Shown: positions 1,720-26,124 of the stretch, one piece after another
Layout of the letters: each line of letters opens with the position of its first letter
Position numbering within the stretch: position 1 is the first letter of the stretch
Assembly: GCA_018060515.1 (NCBI GenBank)
Contig: JAGOVY010000007.1
Span: forward strand, 1-32,324
From: Anaerolineaceae bacterium
GTDB taxonomy: Bacteria > Chloroflexota > Anaerolineae > Anaerolineales > Anaerolineaceae
DNA: 32,324 nucleotides
Direction: 5' to 3'
The notes under the pieces: generated by a model
The model's input: only the letters and a program-made list of their open reading frames with translations
The model's database searches: none
Told to the model about the DNA's origin: nothing
Translations under genes and position numbers: made by a program

Positions 1720-1770
1720 CCATGAGCAGGATGTTCAGGCAAATTTAAGGGTTAGGAGTGCGTAAAACCG

Positions 1771-2328: not shown

Positions 2329-2351
2329 TATAAAAAACCTCCGATTTTTTG

Positions 2352-2378: not shown

Positions 2379-2403
2379 GGTTTTCAGATACAAGGAGGAA
2401 AAA

Positions 2404-3732
2404 ATGACGCAAAAACAAGATTCAAATCAAGCTGATCTTAACAGAATAATTGAATCATCAAAAAGGCTTGGCGTTGAGATCGACGAAGAAGAAGCGCTGC
2501 AGTGGCTGACAAGTATGGCTTCTTACAAAGAAGCCGGACAAATCTCGATGGATACCCGCACAGGAGTGTTCGGGCACAACATGACCATGCTCGATTTCAG
2601 TGACAAGGAGTTGGAGTATTTCCGCCGGGTCGGCAAGATCGTCGAATTTGAAGATATTCCAGGGAAAGTTGAAACCGCGCTGGCTTTATCAGGCTCCTCT
2701 GCCCAGTCGAAGATACAAACCTACCCCGGCGATTGCGATTACTTTGAACGCCTGAATATTATCGCTGCAACGCGTGAAGAAGCCTGCGATATATTGGCGA
2801 AAATTATGCGTGATAAAGCGCTTGAGTTCGCCCAAGGATCCAATTATCAGTTAATCGAAGTGAAATTTGGCGCATACCCGCACGATATGGTTATTGGCAA
2901 CCGTGAAGTTAAGGCAGGGTCACCGATTGGGTGGCAGCCCGCTCAGATTAATGCAGGCAAGATTGAGGGATTTACAAAAGGCGGCACAGCCGTGAGCGTG
3001 CATTGGAATGATGTAAAAACCGAGCCAGGCTGGTGCAAGTTGGATTGGGTGGTTGCCGACCCAATCCGCAGGCAATTGGCAAACGCCAGCAATATGCTGG
3101 ATGTCACTTGGGAAGCACCTAACGGCGGGATTATCCCACTCGATGGCTTTCTCGACCCTTACTTTCAGGAAGTCTATCTCGAGGCTGCTTCTGTGCCAAT
3201 TTTCTCAAAACTCGCACAGCATGTCTCTGCTAACGCACTTGATGATTATGTTTCCGCCTTGGAGCGTGAGGTACATAAGTACCTGACAAAAGACCTCAAT
3301 TATGGCAAGGTCGCCAAACGCATGTACAACATCTTCCGCCTTACCGGTAAGTTCGAAGAGGCGACCTTCTTGCGCGAGTTGTTTGATGAACCCACAACCA
3401 TCCTTTATCAAATCTGGTCATTGATCCGCACGATAGATGATGCCTACATCCCGGGTTCTTCGATCACAAACGAGGAGATGATCGCATCAACAGATAACCT
3501 GATTATTGAAGTGATTCGCGTGCTTGAGGGGGAAGAGGAAACCGAGATTGTGAAACACCTGTTGAACTTGCGCTCAGCACTCGCACAACCTGAAGCCAAG
3601 ATGATGTTCACCGATGAAGCCGAAGCTGCACGCGCGCGCGTGATCAATATTGTCAACAACTTCTTCTTCGAAAAACTCATTGCCTATCCAACCATCAAGG
3701 ATTACATGGACAAAGTCATTACCAACGTGTAA
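2404..3732 (+). CDS. Uncharacterised 442-residue protein with nucleotidyltransferase-like motif
   Basis: ATG start at 2404 with a strong AAGGAGG site upstream. The soluble product has an acidic helical N-terminus (1-80), then LSGSSAQSKI (about 95-104) followed by YPGDCDYFERLN (107-118). The spacing G-S, eleven residues, D-x-D fits the signature of the DNA polymerase beta-like nucleotidyltransferase fold, with EVKFG (152-156) as a possible third strand. Residues about 190-260 hold a small beta-rich segment (GWQPAQINAGKIEGF, VSVHWNDVK), and the C-terminal 170 residues are helical. I do not recognise the family by name. Nucleotide or RNA-end modification is a hypothesis from one motif. The gene is monocistronic, with a terminator immediately downstream. 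Confidence 0.8.
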   Translation: MTQKQDSNQADLNRIIESSKRLGVEIDEEEALQWLTSMASYKEAGQISMDTRTGVFGHNMTMLDFSDKELEYFRRVGKIVEFEDIPGKVETALALSGSSAQSKIQTYPGDCDYFERLNIIAATREEACDILAKIMRDKALEFAQGSNYQLIEVKFGAYPHDMVIGNREVKAGSPIGWQPAQINAGKIEGFTKGGTAVSVHWNDVKTEPGWCKLDWVVADPIRRQLANASNMLDVTWEAPNGGIIPLDGFLDPYFQEVYLEAASVPIFSKLAQHVSANALDDYVSALEREVHKYLTKDLNYGKVAKRMYNIFRLTGKFEEATFLRELFDEPTTILYQIWSLIRTIDDAYIPGSSITNEEMIASTDNLIIEVIRVLEGEEETEIVKHLLNLRSALAQPEAKMMFTDEAEAARARVINIVNNFFFEKLIAYPTIKDYMDKVITNV

Positions 3733-3754
3733 TGCTCTATAAGCTTCATTTCTG

Positions 3755-3793
3755 AAAAGCAAGCCTCTGCAAATTCAGCAAAGGCTTGCTTTT
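3755..3793 (+). terminator. Rho-independent terminator after the 2404 gene
   Basis: AAAAGCAAGCCT (3755-3766) pairs perfectly with AGGCTTGCTTTT (3782-3793) around a 15-base loop. The 3' arm ends in a T run. It lies 23 bases after the stop codon. Confidence 0.8.
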
Positions 3794-3843
3794 ATGCAAC
3801 AGAATCATTCATATCACGTATATTACTTCAGAGACTGTCAAAC

Positions 3844-3916
3844 AATCTCTGCTTATGTGCGTGATGGTAGAATATTGAATAGATTACTTGGTTCTTAAAA
3901 CCACTAAGCAGAGATT
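3844..3916 (+). repeat. 12-bp perfect inverted repeat framing the leader of the 3928 gene
   Basis: AATCTCTGCTTA (3844-3855) and its exact complement TAAGCAGAGATT (3905-3916) are separated by 49 bases. The second arm ends three bases before the ribosome-binding site (GAGGA, 3919-3923) of the 2H phosphoesterase. If both arms are in the transcript the leader would fold into a long stem next to the start site. Alternatively they are two sites for one DNA-binding protein. Confidence 0.6.
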
Positions 3917-3927
3917 ACGAGGATGAA

Positions 3928-4485
3928 TTGAATAAAAATCACCACAGTATCACCGAAGGACTCGCTGTAGAACTTTATCTGGATACCGCTGCAGAAGAGC
4001 AAGTGCTTGAGTTTCGGGACAAAATATACGCTGCAGGAATCAAACCGGTACAGGGATCAATGAAGGACAAGCCTCACGTCAGTTTGGCGGTTTTTCCTTC
4101 TAAAGAATCTGCGCAGCTCATATCGATCACCAGAGAATTGGCGCTAACCATTCAGCGCTTCAACTTCCGCCTGAGCGCTTTGGGAACTTTCCCCACCACA
4201 GACAATGTGCTTTTTCTCTACCCTTCCCCCAGCGTTGAATTGCTCCATGTTCACGCTGCCTTTCACAAACTCATTCAACAGGCTGGCCTCAAGAGCTCAC
4301 CTTATTATTATCCCGGTGTGTGGGTACCTCACCTGACTTTAGAACTTGAGATTTCCAGCGATGAAATGTGCCAATCGATGCACGTTTTTAAAGATGCCTT
4401 CACCCCAATCGAAGGGCACTTCACTCAATTGGGTTTGGTTGGCTTTCGCCCGATTGAGTACCTGGACCAATTTGATCTGCAATAA
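3928..4485 (+). CDS. 2H phosphoesterase / 2'-5' RNA ligase family protein
   Basis: The 185-residue product carries the two H-x-S/T-x motifs of the LigT/2H superfamily, HVSLAVF near residue 51 and HLTLEL near residue 134, at the usual spacing of about 80 residues. Such enzymes act on 2'-5' linkages or 2',3'-cyclic phosphates of RNA or nucleotides; the substrate here is unknown. The start is taken as TTG at 3928, four bases after GAGGA. The ATG at 3923 is in another frame and stops after two codons (ATG AAT TGA), so it overlaps the true start as a dipeptide frame. The gene is followed after eight bases by the DUF1232 gene, so the two are probably translated from one mRNA. Confidence 0.85.
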   Translation: MNKNHHSITEGLAVELYLDTAAEEQVLEFRDKIYAAGIKPVQGSMKDKPHVSLAVFPSKESAQLISITRELALTIQRFNFRLSALGTFPTTDNVLFLYPSPSVELLHVHAAFHKLIQQAGLKSSPYYYPGVWVPHLTLELEISSDEMCQSMHVFKDAFTPIEGHFTQLGLVGFRPIEYLDQFDLQ

Positions 4486-4493
4486 GGATTCCG

Positions 4494-4943
4494 ATGTCAC
4501 AAGCTTTCTACAACCCGCAACAGGATGCTGCAAACAATAAAGTACATCACCATAAATCAAGGGTAGATGATTATTTTCATAACCCTGACAAAACAAGGCT
4601 TTTGTATGAAGAAGCAGTTAAAAAAGCCAACGCAGATGATAATCCGCAAGCGGCTCAAGCTGATTCATGGCTGCGCACCAAGGCATTTTTCCGTATGCTG
4701 AAAGCCTATGCCAAGGGAGAATACACATCCATTCCCTGGGGATCGTTTTTACTCTTCGCTGGTGCAATTCTTTATTTTATCTCTCCCATTGACCTGCTGG
4801 TAGACTGGGTGCCCGTGGCGGGTTATATCGATGACGTGGTCGTGGTTGTCTTCGTAATCCGTCAGTTCAAACGAGATATCGATACATTCATTTTTTGGGA
4901 AGAAAGTCGTAAGCACCCCGGAGAACAGATCATAGATTTGTAA
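4494..4943 (+). CDS. DUF1232 (YkvA-like) membrane protein
   Basis: The 149-residue protein has a hydrophilic N-terminal 75 residues followed by a hydrophobic segment containing YFISPIDLLVDWVPVAGYID and DVVVVVFVIRQF. The SPIDLLxDxxPxxGxxDD pattern is the hallmark of DUF1232. Members are small proteins with one or two membrane helices and no proven biochemical role. The ribosome-binding site AAGGA (4484-4488) overlaps the stop codon of the upstream 2H gene, which supports coupled translation. Confidence 0.87.
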   Translation: MSQAFYNPQQDAANNKVHHHKSRVDDYFHNPDKTRLLYEEAVKKANADDNPQAAQADSWLRTKAFFRMLKAYAKGEYTSIPWGSFLLFAGAILYFISPIDLLVDWVPVAGYIDDVVVVVFVIRQFKRDIDTFIFWEESRKHPGEQIIDL

Positions 4944-4967
4944 AGCAAATTTCCTCTCGTAAATTAG

Positions 4968-4984
4968 TATAATTTGGATATAAT
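4968..4984 (+). promoter_or_regulatory. Two overlapping -10-like boxes before the small lipoprotein gene
   Basis: TATAAT occurs at 4968-4973 and again at 4979-4984 in an AT-rich stretch 32-48 bases before the ATG at 5016. Neither has a clear -35 hexamer. The region probably holds the promoter for the lipoprotein. Confidence 0.35.
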
Positions 4985-5015
4985 TTATATAAATATACCT
5001 GAGGAGGTAACTTAA

Positions 5016-5387
5016 ATGAAAAAACATGTGGTTCTTGTTTTATCGGTCGCGCTGGTGCTCATGCTGGCATTAACTGCTTGCGGCGGGCTCAAAGACGTTG
5101 GGCAACTTGGCGACAAATTCATGAAGGCATTAAGTACTGGCGACCATGCCACTTCTTTCAGTATGCTTTCCCCTGATATTCAGACGGAAGTCGGAGGCGA
5201 AGCGGGTTGGGCTGATTGGGCGAGCATTCGCAATTTCGACGATTGGAAGTTCAACAGCAACACGATCGAAAATAATGAAGCAACGCTTTTGGGTACCGCT
5301 ACTCTGCTAGGAGAAGAATACGACGTTACCCTTGTTTTCGACAACAACAATGATCAGTGGGAAATTATTACGATAATTTTTGAATAA
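5016..5387 (+). CDS. Small secreted lipoprotein, NTF2/DUF4878-like
   Basis: The 123-residue product begins with a charged MKKH, a hydrophobic core and the lipobox LTAC at residues 19-22, so it should be exported by Sec, lipidated and anchored to the membrane. The mature part (FMKALSTGDHATSFSMLSPD) is followed by beta strands ending YDVTLVFDNNNDQWEI. This resembles NTF2-like DUF4878/DUF4864 lipoproteins, which often carry the phrase 'fxxAlxxgDyexAyxllsp'. No catalytic role is evident. GAGGAGGT lies five bases upstream of the ATG and is one of the best ribosome-binding sites in the window, suggesting abundant expression. A strong terminator follows, so the gene is its own unit. Confidence 0.82.
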   Translation: MKKHVVLVLSVALVLMLALTACGGLKDVGQLGDKFMKALSTGDHATSFSMLSPDIQTEVGGEAGWADWASIRNFDDWKFNSNTIENNEATLLGTATLLGEEYDVTLVFDNNNDQWEIITIIFE

Positions 5388-5393
5388 ACTCCC

Positions 5394-5424
5394 AAAAGTG
5401 GAGGCAGCCGCCTCCACTTTTTTT
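5394..5424 (+). terminator. Strong rho-independent terminator
   Basis: GTGGAGGC (5398-5405) pairs perfectly with GCCTCCAC (5410-5417) around an AGCC loop and is followed by seven T. Flanking AAAA/TTTT extends the stem. Confidence 0.95.
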
Positions 5425-5512
5425 ATTAATCAAACCGATATCCATTCAACAAATTTAGCAGCGGCACCATTCAGTTAACAAATGTCCTGAACAACCCGCG
5501 TCTGAGATCAGC

Positions 5513-5541
5513 TTGCGCCGCCATATTGCCCGTGATACACT
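5513..5541 (+). promoter_or_regulatory. Extended -10 promoter, probably giving a leaderless mRNA
   Basis: TTGCGC (5513-5518), a 17-base spacer, then TGA-TACACT (extended -10; hexamer 5536-5541). The ATG at 5548 is six bases after the hexamer, which is where transcription would start. There is no Shine-Dalgarno sequence before this ATG. Both facts point to a leaderless transcript covering the pseudo-receiver gene and polA. Confidence 0.65.
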
Positions 5542-5547
5542 TTTGCT

Positions 5548-6543
5548 ATGAAGCGCTCACTCTTGGCTTACTCAACCTCTGCTGCCTTCCACGCTCATTT
5601 TGATTCGCTTAATCAGCACAGCAACAGCATTGCTATCCACTGCGTGAGTGCGATACAAACCTTTTTCGAGTGCATTTCTCATCAGCCATACGACGCAGTG
5701 CTCATTGATGCCTCTAACCGCGATCTCCCACTCAGCTTGATTACTGTGGATCTCTTGGAACAAAACCCTGACATTAAGATTCTTCTCTTGTCACCTGATG
5801 ATGGTTTTGCCGATGAGGAACTTGATGAGGTGATCTATCATGCTGTGCTGTCTAACCCTATCAACAACGCTGAGATTGAAGCCTCGCTGCTTTTGTTTTT
5901 TCCGGCGCCAAACACCCGCCCAGAAGAGACCACAGTCCCTGCTGAAACCATTGCTGCACCTGAAAGCCAGCCGCCTGAAGAGAATGAACGCAGCCTGATT
6001 GAAATCATCGATGCTGCAGTTTTTGGCTTAGAACCCGCTGAAGAACCCATGGCGTTAATTACAAATTCAGATACCCCTCAAACCAGAAACAACAGCCAGC
6101 ATCCCATCAGCGGAGCAGAAGCCATTGCTCAGCCCGATTTTTCGACTTTGCATTTTGATTATTGCTGTGTGCTGATCCCGCAAAAGCCACAGTATTACCT
6201 GACACGCAGCCTCGCAGCTTGTATCGCCGCCGCTCTTCCTCTAACTCACCAGGCGCGAGGTTGGCGCGTCACAGCGATATCCGTGAGGCCTCAATACCTG
6301 CAATGGATTGTTGCGCTGCCTGCTGAAACCTGCCCTGTTGAAGCTATCTGTGAAATTCGCCAGGCTACTTCTTCATATTTATTCGAACAGTTCCCAGAAT
6401 TAAAAGGGAAAGACGATCAGACAGATTTCTGGGCTCCAGGATACCTGATGCTGAGCGGGTGTAATCCAATCTCCATGAGATTCATACACCAGTTTATTGA
6501 CCGTGCAAGTCTCACTGTCTCAACGACAGTAATTCCAGAATAA
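5548..6543 (+). CDS. Pseudo-receiver fused to IS200/REP-type transposase-derived domain
   Basis: The 331-residue protein has three parts. Residues 1-118 look like a response-regulator receiver: VLIDAS places an Asp (54) at the end of strand 3, but the acidic pair after strand 1 and the Lys after strand 5 are absent (SNPINN). Residues 119-200 are a Glu/Pro-rich linker. Residues 204-320 resemble the Y1 (IS200/REP-associated tyrosine) transposase fold, with ISVRPQYLQWIV at the HUH strand, ICEIRQATSSYLF and TDFWAPGYLMLSG. The HUH histidines are replaced by YLQ, so nicking activity is probably lost, although single-strand DNA binding may remain. I recall similar DFWAPGYL proteins in other Anaerolineae, which suggests a domesticated family. 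It is 11 bases upstream of polA, hinting at a link to DNA repair or replication. Confidence 0.72.
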   Translation: MKRSLLAYSTSAAFHAHFDSLNQHSNSIAIHCVSAIQTFFECISHQPYDAVLIDASNRDLPLSLITVDLLEQNPDIKILLLSPDDGFADEELDEVIYHAVLSNPINNAEIEASLLLFFPAPNTRPEETTVPAETIAAPESQPPEENERSLIEIIDAAVFGLEPAEEPMALITNSDTPQTRNNSQHPISGAEAIAQPDFSTLHFDYCCVLIPQKPQYYLTRSLAACIAAALPLTHQARGWRVTAISVRPQYLQWIVALPAETCPVEAICEIRQATSSYLFEQFPELKGKDDQTDFWAPGYLMLSGCNPISMRFIHQFIDRASLTVSTTVIPE

Positions 6544-6554
6544 CAGGAACCGCT

Positions 6555-9335
6555 ATGCCCCCGATACTCTATTTAATTGACGGTCACGCCCTTGCCTACC
6601 GTACTTATTTTGCCATCACTGCGGGGATGAATGACCGTATGCAAACGGCCAGCGGAGAACCCACCGCTGGAGTTTACGGTTTCGCCAATGTGCTCTTACG
6701 CCTGCTGGAGCAGGAGAGACCAGAATACCTGGCAGTTGCGTTTGATACCGGCAAAACCTTCCGTAACGAGCTCTTCCCTGAATACAAAGCCACCCGAGCG
6801 AAAATGCCCGATGATCTCAGACCTCAAATTGAGCGTATCCGTCAAATGATAGACACCTTCAATTTACCGCGGCTTGAAAAAGAAGGCGTTGAGGCGGATG
6901 ATGTGTTGGGTTCCATAGCCAGACAAGCCACTGAAATGGGTTTGGCGGTAAAAATCATCACAGGCGACCGCGACCTGCTGCAGCTGGTGAACGACCGGGT
7001 GAGCGTCGTTCTATCAGGCTCTAAACTTGCTGATTCAAAGGGTTTTTCGCCAGCTGAAGTTAAAGAATCGCTTGGGGTGATGCCTGATCAGGTTGTTGAT
7101 TACAAAGCACTGGTAGGTGATACCTCCGACAACATCCCTGGCGTTTCAGGGGTTGGTCCAAAAACTGCCATCAACCTGCTTGAAACATATGAGACTCTCG
7201 ACAATATCTATCAAAACTTGGAATCAATCCCTGGCAAACTTGGAGAGAGACTTCGCAATGAAAAAGAAATCGCCTATCTCAGCCAGGATCTCGCGCGCAT
7301 CAGAACAGATGTTGGCGTAAAACTTGTGCTTGAAGACGCCCGCACCAACCACCTCGATATCGCTGGCGTCGAAAAACTCTTCCGCGAATTGGAATTTCGC
7401 ACCTTAATCCCGCGGCTGCGTACCATCGCCGCGCCCCTCATCCAACAGCCGAGCCCGCAGCTTTCTCTCTTCGGTGAAGATGTGAAAGAAATTGTCGTGC
7501 CGACTTCTTATGCACTTGAGGTAAAACTGGTAGATACCCGCGAGAAACTGCAAAACCTGGTGCAGGTGCTTTCAGGCAGTGATTTAATCGCATTTGATAC
7601 AGAAACCACCGCGCTCGATCCTTTGCGTGCACAATTAGTAGGGATTTCGCTGGCGCACCGCGAAGGTGAAGGGTACTACATCCCGCTTGGTCACAAAAAT
7701 CATCAACCACAATTGCAGACAGCCGAGGTAATTGAGGCGCTCAGCCCCTTGATGACGAACCCGGCTATCGCTAAGGCCGGACACAACCTCAAATATGATG
7801 CGCTCGTTCTGGCGAACCACGGTCTCATGGTATCGCCGTTATCGTTCGACACCATGATCGCTGAGTGGCTGACCGACCCGGCCTCGCGCAACCTGGGCTT
7901 GAAAGATATGGCGGATACCTTGCTGGGCATCAGCATGACCCACATTGAAGAACTGATTGGCAAAGGCAAATCTCAAATCAGTATGGATCAGGTACCAGTC
8001 GCCGCCGCTGCCCCTTACGCAGCAGCAGACGCAGAAGTGACCTTGCGCCTCATCCCACTGCTCAAACAGAAGATGGAAAAACACAACTGTGCCAAAATCT
8101 TCCAAACCATTGAAATGCCTCTTGTACCGGTGTTGATGGATATGGAGCTGGCAGGAATTACGTTGGATGCCGCCTTTTTCACCCGTTTCAGCGCAGAAGT
8201 AGGCGAACGGCTCAACCTCATCGAAGGTGAAATCTACCAGGCAGCCGGACACCCATTTAATATCAACTCAACACAGCAGTTGTCCAAAGTCCTCTTCGAA
8301 GAACTCAAACTGGAACCGCCCGACCGTAATAAGAAAACCTCCAGCGGTCATTATTCTACTGCGGCAGCCGTGCTGGATGAGCTCAAAGGTCAACACCCGG
8401 TGATCGATCGGTTATTAGAGTATCGCGAGTTATCCAAATTAAAATCTACCTACCTTGATGCACTGCCCTTGCAAATAAACCCGCGCGACAACCGCGTGCA
8501 CACCAGCTTCAGCCAGACAGGTTCAGTAACCGGCAGGCTGGCATCTTCTGACCCTAATTTGCAGAACATCCCCACCCGTACCGAAATCGGCAGACAGGTG
8601 CGCTTGGGCTTCATTGCCCCAGCGAATCACAGCCTGCTTTCGGTTGATTATTCGCAAATTGAGCTGCGCATTGTAGCGCACATGTCAGGTGACCAAGCTA
8701 TGCTCAATGCCTTCCGTGACGGGCAGGATATCCACGCCGCTACCGCCTCCGCTATTTACGACGTGCCCCTCAACGAAGTCACCAAAGATCAGCGGCGGCA
8801 TGCCAAGGCTATTAATTTTGGTTTAATTTACGGTATGAGCGCCTTTGGTCTCAGCCGCTCAACTGACCTCACCTTGGGAGAGGCCGAAAATTTCGTTAAA
8901 GACTATTTCGAACATTTCCCAGGTGTGAAAAAATATCTCGACAATATCCGCGTCACCGCCGCCAAACAGGGTTACGTAGAAACCATGCTCGGTAGAAGAC
9001 GCTACTTCCCCAACCTTTCAAACCCGGTGAACCAAATGATTCGCAACCGTGAAGAACGCGAAGCTATCAATGCCCCCATCCAGGGCACCGCCGCTGACAT
9101 TATGAAAATTGCCATGATTCGGTTAAAGCAAGCCCTCGCGGCAAGCCCGTATAAAGCCCAAATGCTGTTACAGGTGCACGATGAATTGGTGCTCGAAGTT
9201 CCAGATGACGAACTGGAACCGGTCGCGGTGCTGGTACGCACAACAATGGAAGATGCCCTGCAACTGGATATCCCTTTGCTCACCGAAGCCAGAAGCGGGA
9301 AAAACTGGGGCAGCCTGCAAGTGATCTCTTTCTAA
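6555..9335 (+). CDS. polA: DNA polymerase I with 5'-3' and 3'-5' exonuclease domains
   Basis: The 926-residue product is a full-length family A polymerase. The 5' nuclease (about 1-290) shows FDTGKTFRNELFPEYKATR, GVEADDVLG and TGDRDLLQL, followed by GDTSDNIPGVSGVGPKTA. The proofreading domain (from about 325) keeps all acidic residues: FDTETT, GHNLKYDALV and YAAADAEVT. The polymerase has motif A (VDYSQIELR, about 697), motif B (RRHAKAINFGLIYG, about 746) and motif C (QVHDELVLEV, about 873). It fills gaps, removes RNA primers and serves excision repair. Unlike many thermophile and actinobacterial PolA proteins, proofreading looks active. AGGA precedes the ATG and the gene sits 11 bases after the transposase-derived gene, so they share an mRNA. 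Confidence 0.98.
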   Translation: MPPILYLIDGHALAYRTYFAITAGMNDRMQTASGEPTAGVYGFANVLLRLLEQERPEYLAVAFDTGKTFRNELFPEYKATRAKMPDDLRPQIERIRQMIDTFNLPRLEKEGVEADDVLGSIARQATEMGLAVKIITGDRDLLQLVNDRVSVVLSGSKLADSKGFSPAEVKESLGVMPDQVVDYKALVGDTSDNIPGVSGVGPKTAINLLETYETLDNIYQNLESIPGKLGERLRNEKEIAYLSQDLARIRTDVGVKLVLEDARTNHLDIAGVEKLFRELEFRTLIPRLRTIAAPLIQQPSPQLSLFGEDVKEIVVPTSYALEVKLVDTREKLQNLVQVLSGSDLIAFDTETTALDPLRAQLVGISLAHREGEGYYIPLGHKNHQPQLQTAEVIEALSPLMTNPAIAKAGHNLKYDALVLANHGLMVSPLSFDTMIAEWLTDPASRNLGLKDMADTLLGISMTHIEELIGKGKSQISMDQVPVAAAAPYAAADAEVTLRLIPLLKQKMEKHNCAKIFQTIEMPLVPVLMDMELAGITLDAAFFTRFSAEVGERLNLIEGEIYQAAGHPFNINSTQQLSKVLFEELKLEPPDRNKKTSSGHYSTAAAVLDELKGQHPVIDRLLEYRELSKLKSTYLDALPLQINPRDNRVHTSFSQTGSVTGRLASSDPNLQNIPTRTEIGRQVRLGFIAPANHSLLSVDYSQIELRIVAHMSGDQAMLNAFRDGQDIHAATASAIYDVPLNEVTKDQRRHAKAINFGLIYGMSAFGLSRSTDLTLGEAENFVKDYFEHFPGVKKYLDNIRVTAAKQGYVETMLGRRRYFPNLSNPVNQMIRNREEREAINAPIQGTAADIMKIAMIRLKQALAASPYKAQMLLQVHDELVLEVPDDELEPVAVLVRTTMEDALQLDIPLLTEARSGKNWGSLQVISF

Positions 9336-11238: not shown

Positions 11239-12582
11239 TTAAGTGCGCTTGCGCTGGGGAGCGGGTGTTCTCAATGCTCCACCGCGGTACGATGGCGCCA
11301 ATATTTCAAAAATGGTACATACCCGTGTATCCAGCATGCGGCTGCGAATACGTGCATCCAAATCTTCGAGGTTGCTCGACATGGTAATCACAGTGGGCAA
11401 CTTGGCATTGTAACGTTCGTTAAAAATCTGATAAAGCTTCTCGCGCGCCCAAGGTGTAGCGCTCTGTGTGCCCAAATCATCCAATACCAATAACGGAGCA
11501 GATTTCACCCGATTAAACAATTCATCGTAAGAGGCGTTGCTCGTTGGGCTGAAAGTGGCGCGCAGGTGGTCAAGCAGATCTGGTACCACTACAAAGACCG
11601 GACTTTCACCCATCCCTCTACGGTAGTTGCCGATCGCAGCAGCAAGATGGGTTTTACCGCAGCCATAAGTGCCAGTAAGCACCAGCCAGCCTCGTGGGTT
11701 TTCCGCAAAATCCTGTGCAATACGAAATCCCCTTTCAAGGTTAGTGGATGCTTCAGGAGAGAGTTTCTCGGGTTCTCGTAAACTGAAATTGCCAAAAGAG
11801 CGATCTGCCAGCAGTTGAAGTTGGTAGAGCAGCGGATCGCGGCGCTCCTTTACCGGCATGCGGTAGTCTGGCGCAGTTATCCGAACGGTTGTAACCAGGT
11901 CGGGATCCTGCAATCGCGATCGGATGCGGTCATCCAGATCTTCAAGATCAAGGTTGGTGGTCACCACTGTGGGAAGTTTTCTCGTATAACGATAATCAAT
12001 GATCTGGAAAAGTTTCTCCGCTGCCCAATTGGTAGCGTTGTGTGCGCCGAGGTCATCCAAAACCAAAAGCGGAATACTGCGAATTTCCTCGAAACGTTTT
12101 TCGAAGGAAGAATCGGTTGCCCCATATGAATAGCGCAGCCAATCCAGCAAGTCAGGTACGGTGAGGAAGATGGTGTTCATACCAAATTCAACACAGGTAT
12201 TGGCCACCGCCGCCGCCAAATGCGTTTTCCCGCAGCCGTAAGAGCCCATCAGCGTGAGCCAGCCTTGCGGTTTGGCTGCAAACTGCTGCGCCTGACTGAG
12301 CGCATATTGCAATGAATTTATATGCTCGTCAGCCAGCCCGAGCCTGCCCTGCACTGAAAAAACCGAAAAGGTCATGGGCTTGTAAACTTCAAGGTTGCTC
12401 ACCTGATACAGGCGATTTCGATCAGCTTGCATATTTTCATTCTGGCGGCACACACAGAGAACCAGTTTGCCAAAATTCGGGTCGCTAACCGGCAAAGATT
12501 GGTGAAGATACCCCACACCGTTACAAATTGGGCAGACCGGAGCGTTAGCGTCAGATTTGTCAGTGATTGATGAAGTCGGCAT
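11239..12582 (-). CDS. Tandem AAA+ DnaC/IstB-like helicase loader with N-terminal zinc finger
   Basis: With the ATG at 12582 the product has 447 residues. It opens with a CPICNG...CVCR zinc-binding pair (Cys17, 20, 43, 45), then two complete DnaC-like ATPase domains. Domain 1 has Walker A GSYGCGKTH (113-121), Walker B LLVLDDLG (172-179) and sensor TTN; domain 2 has GTYGCGKTH (304-312), LLVLDDLG (364-371) and SSN. Both are followed by D-D/A-RIRSR. Usual DnaC/DnaI loaders have one ATPase. It should load the DnaB hexamer at forks or stalled forks. An in-frame GTG/ATG at 12642 is possible, but AAGGGA four bases before 12582 and the 23-base overlap with dnaD favour the shorter form. Last gene of the replication operon. 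Confidence 0.9.
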   Translation of the reverse strand: MPTSSITDKSDANAPVCPICNGVGYLHQSLPVSDPNFGKLVLCVCRQNENMQADRNRLYQVSNLEVYKPMTFSVFSVQGRLGLADEHINSLQYALSQAQQFAAKPQGWLTLMGSYGCGKTHLAAAVANTCVEFGMNTIFLTVPDLLDWLRYSYGATDSSFEKRFEEIRSIPLLVLDDLGAHNATNWAAEKLFQIIDYRYTRKLPTVVTTNLDLEDLDDRIRSRLQDPDLVTTVRITAPDYRMPVKERRDPLLYQLQLLADRSFGNFSLREPEKLSPEASTNLERGFRIAQDFAENPRGWLVLTGTYGCGKTHLAAAIGNYRRGMGESPVFVVVPDLLDHLRATFSPTSNASYDELFNRVKSAPLLVLDDLGTQSATPWAREKLYQIFNERYNAKLPTVITMSSNLEDLDARIRSRMLDTRVCTIFEILAPSYRGGALRTPAPQRKRT

Positions 12583-13252
12583 ATTTCCCTTCACTATCTC
12601 TTTTGCGCTTTTCTTCAATGGCTTTTCGATCGGTTCCATCACGCCCTTTCTCTTTCCAGGCTCTCAATATGGCCTCAACATACTGCCAGTGCCGTACGTT
12701 GCGGGTGACCGCAATTTTTATCGCTTCAGCGATCCACTCAGGGGAAAAGGAATTTTCCGCCTCCTGCAATGTCTCGGCAATGATGGGGGTCAGCGGCCCG
12801 ATATTCTCCTCATACAATGCGTAAATATTCGGTCGTTCCTTCTGCAGCCGCAGTGGGAAAGGCGGATCAATACCCGGATGCCACTTGCCTTTGAGCAAAC
12901 CATCCAGCGCCTCCCGACCGCTTTCTGAATTAAGAAAATACAGGGCATCATTCTCATGCTGCGCCCGAATCAGGGTTCCCCGATTGCAGGCGCGTTCCAG
13001 CGCATCTGTCAGATTGTTTTTCTGCGTTTCTTTATCGCTGCCTAAAACTGCAAGGAAAAGATCATCTTTTAGAATTTCAGAAAACAGAAGATAGCGATAT
13101 TCACTGACCTGCCCGCTAAGGTACCAGAAAGCATAAAGTGAAACGCGTAATTCATTAAGGTCGTCAATCGCCGTCAACAAAGAGGAAAAAAAGGTTGCGG
13201 GTATCGATACTGCATCCTGATTTTCTGAGGAGAAGCCTTTGAAGTCTGACAT
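12560..13252 (-). CDS. dnaD: DnaD-like primosome protein
   Basis: The 230-residue protein has a winged-helix-like N-terminal half (FFSSLLTAIDDLNELRVSLYAFW). Its C-terminal DnaD domain runs IYALYEENIGPLTPIIAETL, then FSPEWIAEAIKIAVTRNVRHW and YVEAILRAWKEKG, matching the DnaD/DnaB2 pattern (YxxN-G-lTp, then W-Y-x-x-ILxxW). In Firmicutes such proteins bridge DnaA or PriA to the helicase loader. The same order is seen here, between dnaB (8 bases upstream) and the DnaC-like loader (overlapping), which supports a primosome role. The C-terminal tail is highly charged. Confidence 0.86.
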   Translation of the reverse strand: MSDFKGFSSENQDAVSIPATFFSSLLTAIDDLNELRVSLYAFWYLSGQVSEYRYLLFSEILKDDLFLAVLGSDKETQKNNLTDALERACNRGTLIRAQHENDALYFLNSESGREALDGLLKGKWHPGIDPPFPLRLQKERPNIYALYEENIGPLTPIIAETLQEAENSFSPEWIAEAIKIAVTRNVRHWQYVEAILRAWKEKGRDGTDRKAIEEKRKRDSEGKYADFINH

Positions 13253-13260
13253 GGTGCTTG

Positions 13261-14646
13261 CTACCTTTTCTTCGCAGTGCCAGCGTCTCTCACACTTAAG
13301 GCGTTTTCAAATTTCGCCAGGTTTTGACGGAAAACCAATTCGATGCCGGGGTGAGTAGGTCCATTGCGGTGTTTGGCCACAATCAAGTCGGCGATAACAA
13401 TTGGGTTGGACGCTTTTTCATCCTCTTCTTTTCTGTGAATGAACATGACGATGTCAGCGTCTTGTTCGAGGCTGCCTGAATCTCTGAGATCAGAAAGAAC
13501 CGGACGCTTGCCTTCGCGTTGCTCCACAGCACGCGAGAGCTGAGCTGCAGCCAGCACAGGTACATTAAGTTCGCGGGCAAGCACTTTCAAACTGCGGGAA
13601 ATATAAGAGACTTCCTGAACACGATTTTCAGTTCTCGTATCACTGCCCATCAATTGCAGGTAATCCACCAAGATGAGGTCAAGCCGGTGTTCCATGTGCA
13701 AACGGCGGCATTTGGTTCGCATGGCCATCGGCGTGATGGCGGGGGTGTCATCGAGCCAGATATGGGCGCCAGAAAGTACCGCCGTCGCCTGGGTAAACAG
13801 ATCCCATTCATTGTCGAGTAATTTCCCGGTACGCAGGCGATGCGTATCGATGGCGGTTTCTTGCGCAATGAGCCGCTGCACAAGCTGCATGTTCGACATT
13901 TCCAGAGAAAACATGGCTACATTTTTCTTATGCTTAAGAGCGGCGTGTTTTGCTACCGAAAGCAAGAAACCTGTTTTACCGGTACCCGGTCTGCCTGCGA
14001 TGATTAACAAATCGGATTTTTGTAAACCATTGAGTTGTCTATCCAGATCAGTTAATCCCGTCTGGATGCCCGAAATCTCTTCGTCTCTTTTTGAGAGTTC
14101 ATCGACATGGTCATAATACTCACTAACCACAGTATTGATGGACTCCAGATCATGGCGCACCCTTTTTGCACTGAGGGCGAAAATTGATTTTTCAGCCTCA
14201 TCGAGAACGGTTTTAATTTCTTTGCCCTGATCATAAGCCAATTTCGCCATTTCATTGGCAGAAGCCAGCATGCGCCGCCTGATGGCGGTTTGCTCAACGA
14301 TTTGAGCATAATCTTCCCCATGCAATGACGAAGGGGTCTGGTTCACCAGCGAAAGCAGGTAGGGCATCCCGCCAATTTCGGCAAATTGTCCCTGTTCCTC
14401 AAGGTCATTGCTAACTGTGACCATATCAATGGAGATTCTACGATCATGTAAACGTGCAAACGCATTCCAAATCCACTGGTTGCGGATGATGTAAAAATCG
14501 TTCGGTTCAATAATCTCGGAAATATCTAAATACGAATCGGGGTTGATTAATACTGAGCCCACCACCGCTTCTTCTGCTTCGCGGCTGTAAGGCTGTGATT
14601 GAATCACCTTTGAAGTGTCGTCGTCATAGGGAGGGAAATTGCCCAT
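13261..14646 (-). CDS. dnaB: Replicative DNA helicase DnaB
   Basis: The 461-residue protein has the DnaB N-terminal domain (AEEAVVGSVLINPDSYLDIS) and a RecA-like motor with Walker A GRPGTGKTGF (about 218), Walker B LILVDYLQLMG and the RDSGSLEQDADIVMFIHR block, including the arginine-finger region. It unwinds DNA at forks as a hexamer. There is no intein. It lies 30 bases downstream of the bfn-like gene and 8 bases before dnaD, so helicase, DnaD and loader are produced together. Confidence 0.97.
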   Translation of the reverse strand: MGNFPPYDDDTSKVIQSQPYSREAEEAVVGSVLINPDSYLDISEIIEPNDFYIIRNQWIWNAFARLHDRRISIDMVTVSNDLEEQGQFAEIGGMPYLLSLVNQTPSSLHGEDYAQIVEQTAIRRRMLASANEMAKLAYDQGKEIKTVLDEAEKSIFALSAKRVRHDLESINTVVSEYYDHVDELSKRDEEISGIQTGLTDLDRQLNGLQKSDLLIIAGRPGTGKTGFLLSVAKHAALKHKKNVAMFSLEMSNMQLVQRLIAQETAIDTHRLRTGKLLDNEWDLFTQATAVLSGAHIWLDDTPAITPMAMRTKCRRLHMEHRLDLILVDYLQLMGSDTRTENRVQEVSYISRSLKVLARELNVPVLAAAQLSRAVEQREGKRPVLSDLRDSGSLEQDADIVMFIHRKEEDEKASNPIVIADLIVAKHRNGPTHPGIELVFRQNLAKFENALSVRDAGTAKKR

Positions 14647-18093: not shown

Positions 18094-19284
18094 CTATATA
18101 CAATCAGCCAAAATGCCGCACACCAGCTCAACCTGGTCTTCTGTCATCAAGCCCGAAAAAGGCAGTGCCAGCCCGCGTTTGCCAAGGTCCTCTGTCACTG
18201 GGAAGTCACCTGCCTGGTAACCGAATTTTTCAACCATATATGGCTGCAGGTGGATGGGCAGGAAATATGGCCGCACAGGGATACCCTTCTCATGCAGCCG
18301 GGCAGCCACAGTATCTCGATTCAACTCTTCATCCAGGCGGATGACGTAAACGAACCAGGAAACCCGGGTGGTCTCAGGAACGATGCATGGAGCCTGAATG
18401 CCGGCAATACCGGCAAGCCGCGTTTCGTACCAATCTGCCACCTGCTGTCTTTTTGCCAGCAATTCTTCAATTCGTGAAAATTGCACCAGCCCCAGCGCAG
18501 CGCTCATTTCATCCAGGCGGTAGTTATAGCCCAAATGGGTGTGCTGCAGCCAGGTATCGCCTGAAGCCCTTCCTTGGTTGCGCAGCGCGCGCATATATTC
18601 AGCTGCTTCGTGGTCATCGGTAACGATCATGCCACCTTCGCCAGTGGTCATTTGTTTGTTCGGGTAAAAGGCAAAAACAGCGTGATCTCCAAGCTGGCCA
18701 GCCGGTCGGGTTTTATATTCAGCGCCTAACGCCTCACAAGAATCTTCAATAAGTTTAATCTTGTGCCGGTCAGTTATAGGTCGTAATCGGTCATAATCCG
18801 CCGGCTGCCCAAAAACATCAACGGGCAGCATGGCTTTAATAGAACCGACTTCAGTTGCGCCTTTACGCGGCAGCCAACGCCGCGCTGCCACACCACCTTT
18901 GGCCAGGTCTTCCGCCGCTTGCGCTGATTGTTCAGGATCCATGTTTCCGGTCAGCGGGTCAACATCCACATAGACGGGGATGGCTCCTTCAAAGAGGATG
19001 ACATTGGTGGATGCCACAAAAGAGAACGGCGTAGTTAACACCAGATCGCCGGGTTGAATGCCCGCCGCCCGGATGCAGAGGTGCAATCCGGCGGTGCCTG
19101 AATTCACCCCAATGGCTTCTTTTACACCGGTATACTCAGCGATTGCCTTTTCAAATGCGGTGATGTTTGGCCCCATACTGAGGTGGGGTGTGTGCAGCAC
19201 GGCCATCACGGCTTCGCGCTCGGCATCGGTGAGGTCGGGTAATGACATTGGTACGATCGGTTCAAAAGTTTTCATGGTTATCAA
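18094..19284 (-). CDS. DegT/DnrJ/EryC1 family sugar aminotransferase
   Basis: The 396-residue PLP enzyme has NSGTAGLHLCIRAAGI, the SCEALGAEY block and the active-site Lys in AFYPNKQMTTGEGG. Family members transfer an amino group from glutamate to a keto-sugar nucleotide, giving amino sugars for O-antigen or glycoproteins. An extra segment (AARRWLPRKGATEVGSIKAM) before PVDVFGQPADY is larger than in many relatives. A TTG at 19284 has the better ribosome-binding spacing (GGAAG eight to ten bases upstream); the ATG three codons in (19275) is the alternative. It lies 37 bases after proS and 3 kb from the acyltransferase cluster that could use its product. Confidence 0.93.
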   Translation of the reverse strand: MITMKTFEPIVPMSLPDLTDAEREAVMAVLHTPHLSMGPNITAFEKAIAEYTGVKEAIGVNSGTAGLHLCIRAAGIQPGDLVLTTPFSFVASTNVILFEGAIPVYVDVDPLTGNMDPEQSAQAAEDLAKGGVAARRWLPRKGATEVGSIKAMLPVDVFGQPADYDRLRPITDRHKIKLIEDSCEALGAEYKTRPAGQLGDHAVFAFYPNKQMTTGEGGMIVTDDHEAAEYMRALRNQGRASGDTWLQHTHLGYNYRLDEMSAALGLVQFSRIEELLAKRQQVADWYETRLAGIAGIQAPCIVPETTRVSWFVYVIRLDEELNRDTVAARLHEKGIPVRPYFLPIHLQPYMVEKFGYQAGDFPVTEDLGKRGLALPFSGLMTEDQVELVCGILADCI

Positions 19285-22437: not shown

Positions 22438-23526
22438 TTAGTTTTCAGGCCAGGTTGCGCCTGCCCGTACAATGCCGTTTTCTGGGACGTCTGTTTTTAC
22501 GACAGCGCTGTTGCCAATCCGTGCGCCTGCCCCCACTCGTACGCCCAGGTTGATGGTGACGCCCATTCCCACAAGGGCGCGGTCGCCCACCAGCACCGCA
22601 CCAGCAAGGATAGCCCCCGGGGAGATATTGACGTATTCACCTAACTGACAATCATGAGAAATTATGGCGCCGGTGTTGATGATACTGCCAAATCCAACAT
22701 TCACCTCGCTGCCAACGTAGGCGTTGAAGAAAACCTGGCAACCCGCAGCCAAATTGGCGCTTGGTTCGACAAAAGCGTGGGGATGAATAACGGTAAGGCA
22801 TTCGAAGCCGGCAGCGGCAAGCTTTTCATAAACCACCAGGCGGGGCGTGATGCTTCCGATTCCGCCGACTGCATTCACAGCGAGACGCACGCCGGAACGA
22901 TACAGCCCGGGCAGCAGTTCACCACCGCCAAGCACCGGTATACCCATGATGTTTGTTCCAGCCGGAATGCCGTCATCCAAGATACCGCGGATATGATGCT
23001 CACCTGCCAGGCGAACGAGATCAATCAATGATTTGGCATGTCCGCCGCCGCCATAGATAAGCATATCACCCGGATTTGCCGCACTGGTTTGCACGGAGAG
23101 CAGCTCTCGAACCATATCTTCGGTCACCAACACCCCTTTAGGCAGCAGTGACAGATCAAGCGCCTGTTCCTCAGCCAACAAGCGCGCACGGTTTGTGATG
23201 CGCAGCCCATCAGGAATATCACTTTCACTGGGCAACGGATCTACTGGATTTTTAGCGGGCTCTAAAGTTAATCTGTGTGCGGCAGAATCTGCAATAGCGC
23301 ACAAACGCTCTCCCGCACGCAAGGGTTCTCCCACTTTGCATTTCAAACCGATGATGTAACCATCGCTTGCGGCGGTTAAGTCATATGTCGATTTTGTGGT
23401 CTCAAAACTGGCAATCACCTGCCCCTTCGCGACCCTGTCACCGTCTTTAACCAACAAAGCTGACAACAGTGATTCAGGCTCATTGGGATTAACCAACGGC
23501 ACCAACACTTCGACTGGATTATTCAT
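22438..23526 (-). CDS. Fusion of lipoyl domain, E3-binding-like segment and PglD/NeuD-type sugar acyltransferase
   Basis: The 362-residue protein has three parts. Residues 5-80 form a lipoyl/biotinyl domain whose modified lysine would be Lys45 in FETTKSTYDL (lipoyl-like, not the biotin A-M-K-M). Residues 108-143 (LRITNRARLLAEEQALDLS, then LVTEDMVREL) resemble the peripheral-subunit-binding domain of E2 proteins, with a shortened glycine loop. Residues 155-362 are a PglD/NeuD acyltransferase: Rossmann start YGGGGHAKSLIDL, then a left-handed beta-helix with the catalytic His291 in NTGAIISHDCQLGEYVNISP. The usual E2 acyltransferase domain is absent. It overlaps the E1-beta gene by eight bases. 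The likely role is moving an acyl group from the E1 enzyme through the lipoyl arm to an amino sugar; this is inference. Confidence 0.88.
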   Translation of the reverse strand: MNNPVEVLVPLVNPNEPESLLSALLVKDGDRVAKGQVIASFETTKSTYDLTAASDGYIIGLKCKVGEPLRAGERLCAIADSAAHRLTLEPAKNPVDPLPSESDIPDGLRITNRARLLAEEQALDLSLLPKGVLVTEDMVRELLSVQTSAANPGDMLIYGGGGHAKSLIDLVRLAGEHHIRGILDDGIPAGTNIMGIPVLGGGELLPGLYRSGVRLAVNAVGGIGSITPRLVVYEKLAAAGFECLTVIHPHAFVEPSANLAAGCQVFFNAYVGSEVNVGFGSIINTGAIISHDCQLGEYVNISPGAILAGAVLVGDRALVGMGVTINLGVRVGAGARIGNSAVVKTDVPENGIVRAGATWPEN

Positions 23527-24565
23527 TTTGACGAACCACCTTTCTCACCTTATTCAACAGGTCATCCAGTTGCGGCAAAATTGCCGCTTCCAGCGTTGGC
23601 GCAGCTGCCACCGGCAAATCACGCGCGGCAACGCGTGCACAAGCCCGCAGCTTCATGTTGGGGGTTTCGCCGATGCGGGCCAATACTTCAGCTCCCCAAC
23701 CTCCGCTCAGGCTGCCTTCTTCAAGCGTCACCAATCTGCCGGTACGGCGCACTGAATCTGCCAGTATTGTGGTGTCAAAAGGCGTTAACCGGGTCGAGAC
23801 AACCAGTTCGGCAAAGATTTCCTCTTCATATGCCAGCCTGAGAATTGCCTGGCGCGCAAGTTCCGCCATATACCCATATGCGGTCAGCGTAACATGCGCT
23901 TTTGGTGCGCCCTTAACACTCACAAGGTACGTCGGGGTGTTCAACATCCCCGCTGCAGAGGGTAAGGCCAATATTTGAAGATCGGGTAACTCGGGCATGG
24001 AATACAGCGGCAGCAGGTATTGCAGCTTGTTCTCAAGAAAAAGTACCGGTTCAGCAGCTTTTAGGATGATGTCGGTCAGTAAATCACCTGGTGACTGTTT
24101 GATTGTATCATCCATAAAATTGAGCGGTGCGATGAGCGTCAGCCCCGGTACACCGATAAACATTTTTTCCAGCGTCTGTGAGTGTGTCGGTCCATATCCG
24201 CGCCTGCCGCCCATAGGGGTGCGGATGACAAGCGGCAGGTTCACCGTGTTGTTGTACATCCAGCGAAATTTGCTGATATGGTTGACAAGCTGGTCTGCGG
24301 TCAGCGTGATAAAGTCGCCGAACATAATTTCAAGCACCGGTTTTAACCCGCGCAGCGCCATACCGGCTGCCAGGCCGGCCAACCCCGCCTCAGAGATGGG
24401 TGCCCCCAGCACCCGTTGAGGGTAGGCAGTCGAACAGCCCTTCGTCACTTTAAATGCCCCGCCGTAAGGGTCGAGAATATCTTCGCCGAGCAGGAATACA
24501 CGTTCATCTCGCTGCAAGGCTGAATGCAAACCCGCATTCAAAGAGGAAAGGACGGTCGTTTTCAC
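23519..24565 (-). CDS. 2-oxoacid dehydrogenase E1 component, beta subunit
   Basis: The 348-residue protein matches pyruvate/acetoin dehydrogenase E1-beta: LGEDILDPYGGAFKVTKG, APISEAGLAGLAAGMALRG, LEIMFGDFITLTADQLVNHI and RTPMGGRRGYGPTHSQTLE. The C-terminal transketolase-like domain has LTAYGYMAELARQA, then RRTGRLVTLEEGSLSGGWGA. With E1-alpha it binds thiamine diphosphate and decarboxylates a 2-oxoacid, passing the acyl group to lipoyl lysine. Residues about 165-200 are less conserved than normal and may affect substrate choice. It overlaps E1-alpha by four bases (ATGA) and the acyltransferase fusion by eight. Confidence 0.94.
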   Translation of the reverse strand: MKTTVLSSLNAGLHSALQRDERVFLLGEDILDPYGGAFKVTKGCSTAYPQRVLGAPISEAGLAGLAAGMALRGLKPVLEIMFGDFITLTADQLVNHISKFRWMYNNTVNLPLVIRTPMGGRRGYGPTHSQTLEKMFIGVPGLTLIAPLNFMDDTIKQSPGDLLTDIILKAAEPVLFLENKLQYLLPLYSMPELPDLQILALPSAAGMLNTPTYLVSVKGAPKAHVTLTAYGYMAELARQAILRLAYEEEIFAELVVSTRLTPFDTTILADSVRRTGRLVTLEEGSLSGGWGAEVLARIGETPNMKLRACARVAARDLPVAAAPTLEAAILPQLDDLLNKVRKVVRQNE

Positions 24566-25461
24566 TCTGTCTCCTCAAGGGTTGCCAGCGGATCTGCCAA
24601 AGCATGTTCAAACGCCCGCGTCACTTCTTGCTCAACTTCGTTGTGCAACTGTTCCAGAGTCTCCAACGGCAATCTGGCGGCAAGTATTTTCAGTGGGTCG
24701 CGTGTGGAGCGAAGCTCCCTGATCACAGCCTCCGAACGGGTATCATCACCTTTGGAGTGCGGACCAAAGCGCACGGTGTTTAGCACCAGCGCCTGAGGCA
24801 GAGAGTTTTTAAGGATGCTGGTAACACACTTCAACGATGCTTGTTGAACTTCGCTCACATCACTCGTATTCAACTCTGTCACCTGAATATCGAAAGCCTG
24901 CAATCGTTCGGGAATTCTGCCTGCCATCACGAGCGCAGTGGGCGTGGTTTGCGCGATGTGATTGTGCTCCACTACTATGAGCAGCGGTACACGCCACAAG
25001 GAAGCCATATTGCATGCCTCGTATAAAGCGCCCTCGCCAAACGTACCATCACCAACAAACAAAGTTACAAGCGCGCCAGATTGTTTTTCTTTTTCAGCCA
25101 GCGCCATCCCTGCGGCGATCGGAACAATACCACCCTGAACGCCGTTGGAATACAGGTTGCGCCAGTGAATATGCTGTGAGCCTCCTCTGCCGCCGCAAAG
25201 CCCGGTTGCCTTTCCCATCATTTCAGCGAAGAGTGAGCGCATATCACCGCCATAAGCGATAAAGTGACCATGGCAGCGGTGGTTGGTTACAATTACATCG
25301 TCCGGCTGCAGCACGCTAATCACGCCGGCGGCGTTGGCTTCTTGCCCAATCGAGGTATGGGTTGTGCCGGCAAACACCCCACGCGAGAATTCTTCCAACA
25401 CAGTTTCTTCAAAACGGCGAATACGGAACATGGTACGGTAGAGTTCAATCTCGTTCAGCAT
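24562..25461 (-). CDS. 2-oxoacid dehydrogenase E1 component, alpha subunit
   Basis: The 299-residue protein is slightly shorter than usual E1-alpha (about 320-330). It shows THTSIGQEANAAGV, HRCHGHFIAYGGDM, GRGGSQHIHW and the thiamine diphosphate motif GDG (137-139) to Asn167 (VVEHN), followed by IAQTTPT. Near the end GPHSKGDDTR marks the phosphorylation-loop region of the family. It forms the ThDP-dependent decarboxylase with E1-beta. The substrate could be pyruvate, a branched 2-oxoacid or another acid. Its start overlaps the 3-methyladenine glycosylase gene by seven bases. Confidence 0.94.
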   Translation of the reverse strand: MLNEIELYRTMFRIRRFEETVLEEFSRGVFAGTTHTSIGQEANAAGVISVLQPDDVIVTNHRCHGHFIAYGGDMRSLFAEMMGKATGLCGGRGGSQHIHWRNLYSNGVQGGIVPIAAGMALAEKEKQSGALVTLFVGDGTFGEGALYEACNMASLWRVPLLIVVEHNHIAQTTPTALVMAGRIPERLQAFDIQVTELNTSDVSEVQQASLKCVTSILKNSLPQALVLNTVRFGPHSKGDDTRSEAVIRELRSTRDPLKILAARLPLETLEQLHNEVEQEVTRAFEHALADPLATLEETE

Positions 25462-26045
25462 GTGCCAACCTCATTGGTGATCGTAAATCGCCAAGGAATG
25501 GAACGCCAGGGTTCTGGTGTGGAATCTATCCCGATACGTGCTGATGTATGGATGGATTTGTCTTCTACCTTTATCCCCTCTTCTATGAAAAGAGGGTTTG
25601 ATGAATCTGTCAACAATGAACCATTCAGTTCACCATCAACATTAAACGCTTTACAAATTTTCGCCGGTCCGTTACACCAAAGCGCCGGCTTTACTCCCGG
25701 CCGGTGAGCGGTGATTAAATCCAACCCTTCTTCCGGTTGGAGGGCACGAATTAATACTGCCGCAGGGTAGCCTTCGGCGCCGCAGACTGCATTGAGGCAC
25801 CAATGCATGCCATAGGTAAAGTAAATATATGCCCGCCCTCCATTGGCATACATCACAGCATTACGGCGGGTTTTTCCCCGGTGGGCATGACACGCCAGGT
25901 CATCCTCTCCGCGATAGGCTTCTGTCTCGTTGATTATTCCAGAGATACGTCGTCCGTTCAGTCGGCGCACCAGACGCTTACCCAGCAAAGCGCGTGCCAC
26001 CACAGTAGGATCGGACAGAAAGAATATTTCAGACAGGCATTTCAT
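25455..26045 (-). CDS. 3-methyladenine DNA glycosylase (AAG/MPG family)
   Basis: The 196-residue enzyme starts MKCLSEIFFLSDPTVVARAL, as family members do, and has the catalytic Glu in INETEAYRGEDD, HAHRGKTRRNAVMYANGG, IYFTYGMHWCLN and the ALWCNGPAKICKAF block. It removes alkylated purines and hypoxanthine by flipping the base. An in-frame ATG eight codons upstream (26069) adds a sequence unlike the family. A TATAAT (26057 to 26052) ends six bases before the ATG at 26045 and there is no Shine-Dalgarno, so a leaderless transcript is likely. Its end overlaps the E1-alpha gene, an odd partner for a repair enzyme. Confidence 0.93.
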   Translation of the reverse strand: MKCLSEIFFLSDPTVVARALLGKRLVRRLNGRRISGIINETEAYRGEDDLACHAHRGKTRRNAVMYANGGRAYIYFTYGMHWCLNAVCGAEGYPAAVLIRALQPEEGLDLITAHRPGVKPALWCNGPAKICKAFNVDGELNGSLLTDSSNPLFIEEGIKVEDKSIHTSARIGIDSTPEPWRSIPWRFTITNEVGTC

Positions 26046-26124
26046 ACTGGTATTATACTCAAACGGCATCCGCTCGCAGCAGGTTGGAGGAATTAGAATC
26101 GGATCTTCGCTGGCAGCCTAAACG

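Follow-up and report, generated by a model that had tools for sequence, protein, structure and literature searches.

This study focused on a three-gene unit in a 32,324-nucleotide stretch of DNA from an Anaerolineaceae bacterium (GenBank assembly GCA_018060515.1, contig JAGOVY010000007.1), the whole of which is referred to here as the window. The unit lies on the minus strand and encodes the alpha and beta subunits of a thiamine diphosphate (ThDP)-dependent E1, followed by a fusion protein in which a lipoyl domain and a segment resembling a peripheral subunit-binding domain (PSBD) precede a PglD-type sugar acyltransferase. An earlier description made from the DNA letters alone (the sequence-only reading) had reported overlaps of 4 and 8 bases between the three genes, with which the coordinates of the open reading frames (ORFs) agree, and had noted that the genes specify a complete E1 pair, a lipoyl lysine (Lys45) and a PglD histidine in the motif SHDC, all of which are present in the window proteins.

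The fusion protein scored above the Pfam cut-offs for Biotin_lipoyl (41.8, cut-off 22.1), PglD_N (36.8, cut-off 23.4) and Hexapep (45.6, cut-off 27), and above that of the NCBIfam model for NeuD/PglB/VioB (TIGR03570; 164.6, cut-off 160.8). Biotin_lipoyl (PF00364) and PglD_N were each matched in 73/73 fusion homologues, while Pfam detected the coenzyme A (CoA)-acyltransferase core of E2 (PF00198) neither in the fusion nor in its 72 scanned homologues. Lys45 was invariant in all 77 fusions and in 30/30 further members, and across the 77 it was accompanied by an equally invariant E42. His291 was kept in 96% of the 77 rows, truncated rows included, and was invariant in alignment A3, as were D184 and D185. 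The equivalents of these two aspartates bind uracil and ribose in Pcryo_0637, and in both PglD and Pcryo_0637 the Asp pair and catalytic His serve a UDP-amino sugar (PMC8040287). By sequence, the nearest solved relatives of the fusion were perosamine/bacillosamine-type N-acetyltransferases, and its AlphaFold2 (AF2) model, with a mean predicted local distance difference test (pLDDT) score of 84 that was weaker in the beta-helix, matched structures of the PglD family as well as those of lipoyl/biotinyl domains. The sequence-only reading had also placed an E3-binding-like segment between the two. By eye, residues 109-146 fit the PSBD pattern, and the AF2 model puts two helices there (helix-loop-helix), but Pfam E3_binding (PF02817) was matched only weakly, in 2/73 homologues (best E = 0.042), and not in the window protein.

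The window E1-alpha matched Pfam E1_dh (154 bits, E = 4.4e-45) and the E1-beta matched Transket_pyr and Transketolase_C. Residues GDG137-139, N167, His64 and His235 of E1-alpha were invariant or nearly so among 83 homologues, and were also kept in a 15-row alignment that included divergent types; Glu59 and His128 of E1-beta were conserved in an 84-row alignment. We take the roles of these residues to be those of established E1 enzymology. The closest solved relatives by sequence were pyruvate and branched-chain E1s, both 2-oxoacid dehydrogenases. The proteins scored below the NCBIfam pyruvate dehydrogenase cut-offs (E1-alpha, 224 against 393.85; E1-beta, 184.5 against 321), and by bit score and tree the window-type E1-beta forms a subfamily distinct from canonical E1-beta. 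At several loci the two subunits were joined as one protein. With scores below these cut-offs and PF00198 absent, the trio is not a pyruvate dehydrogenase, though it should operate as one does until acyl-lipoyl has formed. Judged by its sequence features, it is probably a dedicated complex of the 2-oxoacid dehydrogenase type, in which the CoA-acyltransferase core of E2 has been replaced by a nucleotide-sugar acyltransferase of the PglD/NeuD type.

The unit is widely conserved. When an E1-beta alignment was scanned against one genome per species (GTDB 220), at least 556 relatives were confirmed, and the best 80, which were taken further, were nearly all from Chloroflexota. Loci L094, L111 and L102 were from metagenome-assembled genomes labelled Myxococcales, Lujinxingiaceae and Acidimicrobiia. 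At 83 loci with E1-beta, E1-alpha was present in 82, and 76 carried an intact fusion in the same orientation; in the remaining seven the fusion was cut by a contig end or broken. The trio recurred in many genera, with approximately 40-70% identity per protein. Among 251 genomes of the order to which the window belongs, 89 carried a full-length fusion, and in 85/89 the E1-beta subfamily lay upstream of it, sharing its contig and strand, at a distance of 150 bases or less in 72 of these 85. For two of the other four fusions the contig ended within E1-beta, which brings those with this subfamily directly upstream to 87/89, and a third fusion was itself at the edge of its contig. The fourth (G301; L185:6977-8188) retained the Lys, lacked E1 over the 6-7 kb that precede it, and carried SQDC in place of SHDC (His291 to Gln), which suggests a decaying gene. 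Chance adjacency of the three genes was ruled out by their recurrence and the near-perfect linkage of E1 and fusion.

Two further features were seen at individual loci. A gene of about 425-430 amino acids (aa) with a Cys-rich N-terminus, zinc-ribbon-like by eye, stood between E1-beta and the fusion at L063, L071, L072, L073 and L095, and the fusion genes of L141 and L142 each contained one in-frame TGA, which may reflect an assembly error, a pseudogene or a frameshift.

Fifteen genomes encoded a PglD protein that belongs to the clade of the fusions and has no lipoyl domain, and the E1-beta subfamily was absent from all 15, genome-wide. The association of E1 with the lipoyl domain gave a Fisher p of 8e-15, which does not stand for fifteen independent events because independent losses were few. 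Since the lipoyl-less members sit within the fusion clade, the fusion was probably ancestral, and E1 and the lipoyl domain were probably lost together. Locus L027 (10130-11113) looks like an intermediate of this loss: its gene order is MPG, PglD, bactofilin, similar to the window, E1 is missing, and the N-terminal domain of its PglD can be aligned with the lipoyl domain but is without the Lys. The lipoyl-less relatives retained PglC, DegT and bactofilin neighbours, so it is the acyl supply that differs between the two states, not the pathway. The sequence-only reading had held that a consistent absence of E1 genes near homologous fusions would speak against it; the opposite was found, in the near-perfect linkage, in the joint loss, and in divergent fusions that also lie by E1 genes.

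Among these divergent arrangements, locus L190 (genome G668, from another family of the phylum; 1145-7353) has the gene order PglC, MocA-type oxidoreductase, lipoyl-NeuD, E1-alpha, E1-beta, DegT. This type B fusion has the lipoyl motif ETDKV and the C-terminus GVPAK, and its E1s are near canonical pyruvate dehydrogenase. A second type B fusion (L189, 1093-4124) is next to PglC and a MocA-type oxidoreductase, and no E1 was found by search on its 7.5-kb contig; the architecture was present in 2/158 genomes of that class. A third and very divergent E1-alpha, E1-beta, lipoyl-NeuD unit (type C) was found within the same family as the window (L175, 657-9533), where genes for APS kinase, PAPS reductase, a SIS-domain protein and a MocA-type oxidoreductase cluster with it. 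The NeuD tree places types B and C apart from the window clade. An independent origin of type B is not proven, as the E1-beta tree places L190 between canonical and window-type E1. A search of plasmids gave only partial matches, to the NeuD domain.

A PglC-type bacterial sugar transferase (PF02397) was near the trio in 33/83 loci and, by clustering, a DegT/PseC-type aminotransferase in 29/83. The window DegT gene matched Pfam DegT (8.1e-110), and NCBIfam PseC with 299 bits, under the cut-off of 423.5. Because of the PglC and DegT neighbours, together with the conserved Asp pair and catalytic His, the acceptor is most likely a UDP-4-amino sugar. Inspection of the large neighbour clusters by eye revealed no PglF-type dehydratase. 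As to cofactor supply, the host genome carries LipA (364 bits, above the cut-off) and an LplA/LipB-family protein, both away from the trio. It also has a separate E1-E2 pair with a normal E2 core, the sole PF00198 match, on contig C72 (L030:548-5775), in which a one-chain E1 (837 aa) and the E2 are beside a flavoprotein that resembles ferredoxin-NAD reductase and is not a clear lipoamide dehydrogenase. The sequence-only reading had pointed to a missing lipoamide dehydrogenase (E3), needed to reoxidise the lipoyl group. None is beside the trio, but this is probably no real obstacle, as the genome has elsewhere an ORF resembling lipoamide dehydrogenase, which is truncated at the edge of its contig (TIGR01350, 385.7 bits over model positions 128-461, cut-off 408.8).

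Table 1. Coordinates in the window of the trio, its domains and key residues, and the DegT/PseC-type aminotransferase gene.
Feature	Position	Strand	Basis
E1-alpha (299 aa), ThDP-dependent 2-oxoacid dehydrogenase alpha subunit	24562-25461	minus	Pfam E1_dh
E1-beta (348 aa) of a separate subfamily that has the block PMGGRRGYGPTHSQ	23519-24565	minus	Pfam Transket_pyr/Transketolase_C
Lipoyl-PSBD-like-PglD fusion (362 aa)	22438-23526	minus	Pfam, NCBIfam, homologue alignment, AF2 model
Lipoyl domain, residues 1-80	23287-23526	minus	Pfam Biotin_lipoyl, AF2 model
Lys45 codon (ETTKST), presumed lipoylation site	23392-23394	minus	Lys conservation
PSBD-like segment (residues 105-147), where E1 (and E3) would presumably dock	23086-23214	minus	PSBD pattern by eye; two helices in the AF2 model
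PglD_N domain for UDP-sugar binding (residues 153-240), with GxGGH motif and D184-D185	22807-23070	minus	Pfam PglD_N
Acyltransferase domain with left-handed beta-helix (residues 241-362) and AGATWP instead of GxPA at the C-terminus	22441-22806	minus	Hexapep
His291 codon (SHDC), catalytic base	22654-22656	minus	Conservation; alignment with the catalytic-His region of PerB/PglD
DegT/PseC-type aminotransferase, probable maker of a 4-amino sugar	18094-19284	minus	Pfam DegT, NCBIfam PseC

The trio is flanked by MPG glycosylase and bactofilin genes, the former of which (25455-26069) is upstream and overlaps E1-alpha by 7 bases. Elsewhere in the window, the ORF at 11239-12642 apparently consists, by eye, of two tandem DnaC/IstB-like ATPase halves, and is near a DnaB-like helicase gene (13261-14646).

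The reaction proposed for the trio would begin with decarboxylation of a 2-oxoacid by the ThDP-dependent E1, which would then reductively acylate the lipoyl arm presumed to be carried on Lys45. The arm would swing the acyl thioester to the active site of the beta-helix, where His291 would activate the amine of a 4-amino sugar, linked to UDP and supplied by the DegT-type aminotransferase, and the acyl group would pass directly to the sugar amine. The N-acylated sugar would move on to the PglC-type phosphoglycosyl transferase, and the dihydrolipoyl arm would be reoxidised by the general lipoamide dehydrogenase of the genome, presumably shared with other complexes. Donation straight from acyl-lipoyl is the simplest reading because the unit has no CoA-acyltransferase core and its sole acyltransferase shares a polypeptide chain with the lipoyl domain. 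With slightly less assurance than for the nature of the complex itself, we favour the view that the trio is a swapped-core machine, which hands a 2-oxoacid-derived acyl group via lipoyl-lysine to a UDP-amino sugar without CoA, and that it occurs widely in Chloroflexota and may have been assembled on more than one occasion. The parts, their catalytic residues, the linkage, the joint loss and the pathway neighbourhood are seen in the sequences, while lipoylation of Lys45, direct transfer to the sugar, the acyl group, the sugar and the use of a shared E3 are what we infer. A direct acyl relay to an amino sugar had been put forward in the sequence-only reading, and it is supported in part: the linkage of E1 and fusion speaks for it, and the UDP-site residues and the PglC and DegT neighbours support a UDP-amino sugar as the class of acceptor. 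Its CoA-free step can only be inferred, because the lipoyl-less members presumably rely on a different donor, and GxPAK persists in one divergent type.

Several other points weigh against this mechanism. Depending on the tree, the lipoyl-less members within the fusion clade form one to three groups, and so represent only one to three losses. They retain the catalytic domain and the AGxxWP end, from which it follows that a free donor can presumably serve the PglD domain. GVPAK is retained in the divergent L190 type, the confidence of the beta-helix in the monomer AF2 model is only modest, the PSBD assignment is weak, and the E3 gene is not clustered with the trio.

The alternative that survives best, although we consider it unlikely, is that PglD works here as an ordinary N-acyltransferase dependent on acyl-CoA, and that E1 and the lipoyl domain only raise acyl-CoA locally, with the housekeeping E2 core transferring acyl groups in trans from this lipoyl arm to CoA. 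The unit encodes no E2 core, and the lipoyl domain is covalently attached to the sugar acyltransferase, both of which argue against it, while the presence of a canonical-type E2 in the genome and the presumed use of acyl-CoA by the lipoyl-less relatives are in its favour. The C-terminus bears on both sides. In characterised NeuD/PglD-type enzymes, the Pro of GxPA isomerises on CoA binding. This motif is found in most NeuDs outside the clade but is absent from all 73 full-length fusions, which have AGxxWP instead. The AGxxWP end fits an altered donor site, and is not decisive because the lipoyl-less relatives have it too; type B, with its GVPAK, is a point for the acyl-CoA-dependent enzyme, and the loss of GxPA was rejected as proof of CoA independence.

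A lipoyl relay could instead be charged with a two-carbon (C2) unit from a ketose phosphate, by chemistry similar to that of transketolase, as NapB/NapD feed an acyl carrier protein (ACP), giving an N-glycolyl sugar. Two-component transketolase-type enzymes do pass a ketose-phosphate C2 unit to ACP (PMC7570522), and the E1 subfamily scores far under the pyruvate dehydrogenase cut-offs, but its closest solved relatives are 2-oxoacid dehydrogenases and no phosphosugar-specific feature was identified in it, making this donor improbable. Least credible, to the point of being scarcely tenable, is that the E1 is a carboligase that puts a branched two-carbon chain on a keto sugar while lipoyl-PglD acts separately, for although the pyruvate dehydrogenase-like AviB1/AviB2 and Pau11/Pau12 are proposed to add two-carbon sugar branches (PMC4425429), with a similar proposal for everninomicin (PMC10338323), the invariance of Lys45 and the disappearance of E1 together with the lipoyl domain point to the lipoyl arm as the partner of E1, and the setting is one of an aminotransferase and an N-acyltransferase.

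The known acceptors of a lipoyl-borne acyl group are CoA and, reportedly, ACP. If direct donation by the trio is correct, a sugar amine would be a new class of acceptor, tying the 2-oxoacid pools of central metabolism directly to glycan building, and the glycans of Chloroflexota would be predicted to bear N-acyl groups missed by annotation based on acetyl-CoA. In spite of the at least 556 E1-beta relatives, such a system is easily overlooked because the family model that fits the fusion labels it merely an acetyltransferase. Literature searches found no paper on a lipoyl-PglD/NeuD protein or on its combination with E1; a 'lipoyl' match in enterobacterial flagellin islands was rejected, as it concerns fatty-acid genes.

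In comparison with known systems, the trio shares with 2-oxoacid dehydrogenase complexes (pyruvate, branched-chain and acetoin dehydrogenases with heterotetrameric E1) the E1-alpha and E1-beta with ThDP motif and catalytic His/Glu, the order of lipoyl then PSBD-like parts on one E2-like chain, and adjacent, overlapping genes. It differs in having a PglD-type beta-helix instead of the 2-oxoacid_dh (PF00198) core, no adjoining E3 gene, and E1s that fall under the pyruvate dehydrogenase equivalog cut-offs. With the PglD/NeuD/PerB N-acetyltransferases (Campylobacter jejuni PglD, Pcryo_0637, Caulobacter PerB) it has in common GxGGH, the Asp pair, the catalytic His, the beta-helix and, as in bacillosamine pathways, frequent PglC and DegT neighbours, whereas the N-terminal lipoyl and PSBD-like domains, the dedicated E1, and AGxxWP in place of GxPA are additions or changes. 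AviB1/AviB2 and Pau11/Pau12 are likewise pyruvate dehydrogenase-like E1 pairs in sugar biosynthesis, but theirs is a proposed C-C bond on a keto sugar, with no lipoyl-acyltransferase fusion described (PMC4425429). NapB/NapD of naphthyridinomycin (DinS/DinU in dnacin) similarly divert a C2 unit of central metabolism, by an E1-like enzyme, to an acceptor other than CoA, but with a ketose-phosphate donor and an ACP acceptor in a peptide synthetase pathway, and no sugar acyltransferase. A lipoyl arm is reportedly used in the C2 transfer of that system. Finally, LpxA and LpxD are left-handed beta-helix enzymes that move an acyl group from a protein-bound thioester, on ACP, onto a UDP-sugar; their carrier is the phosphopantetheine arm of ACP, whereas here it would be a fused lipoyl arm loaded by E1.

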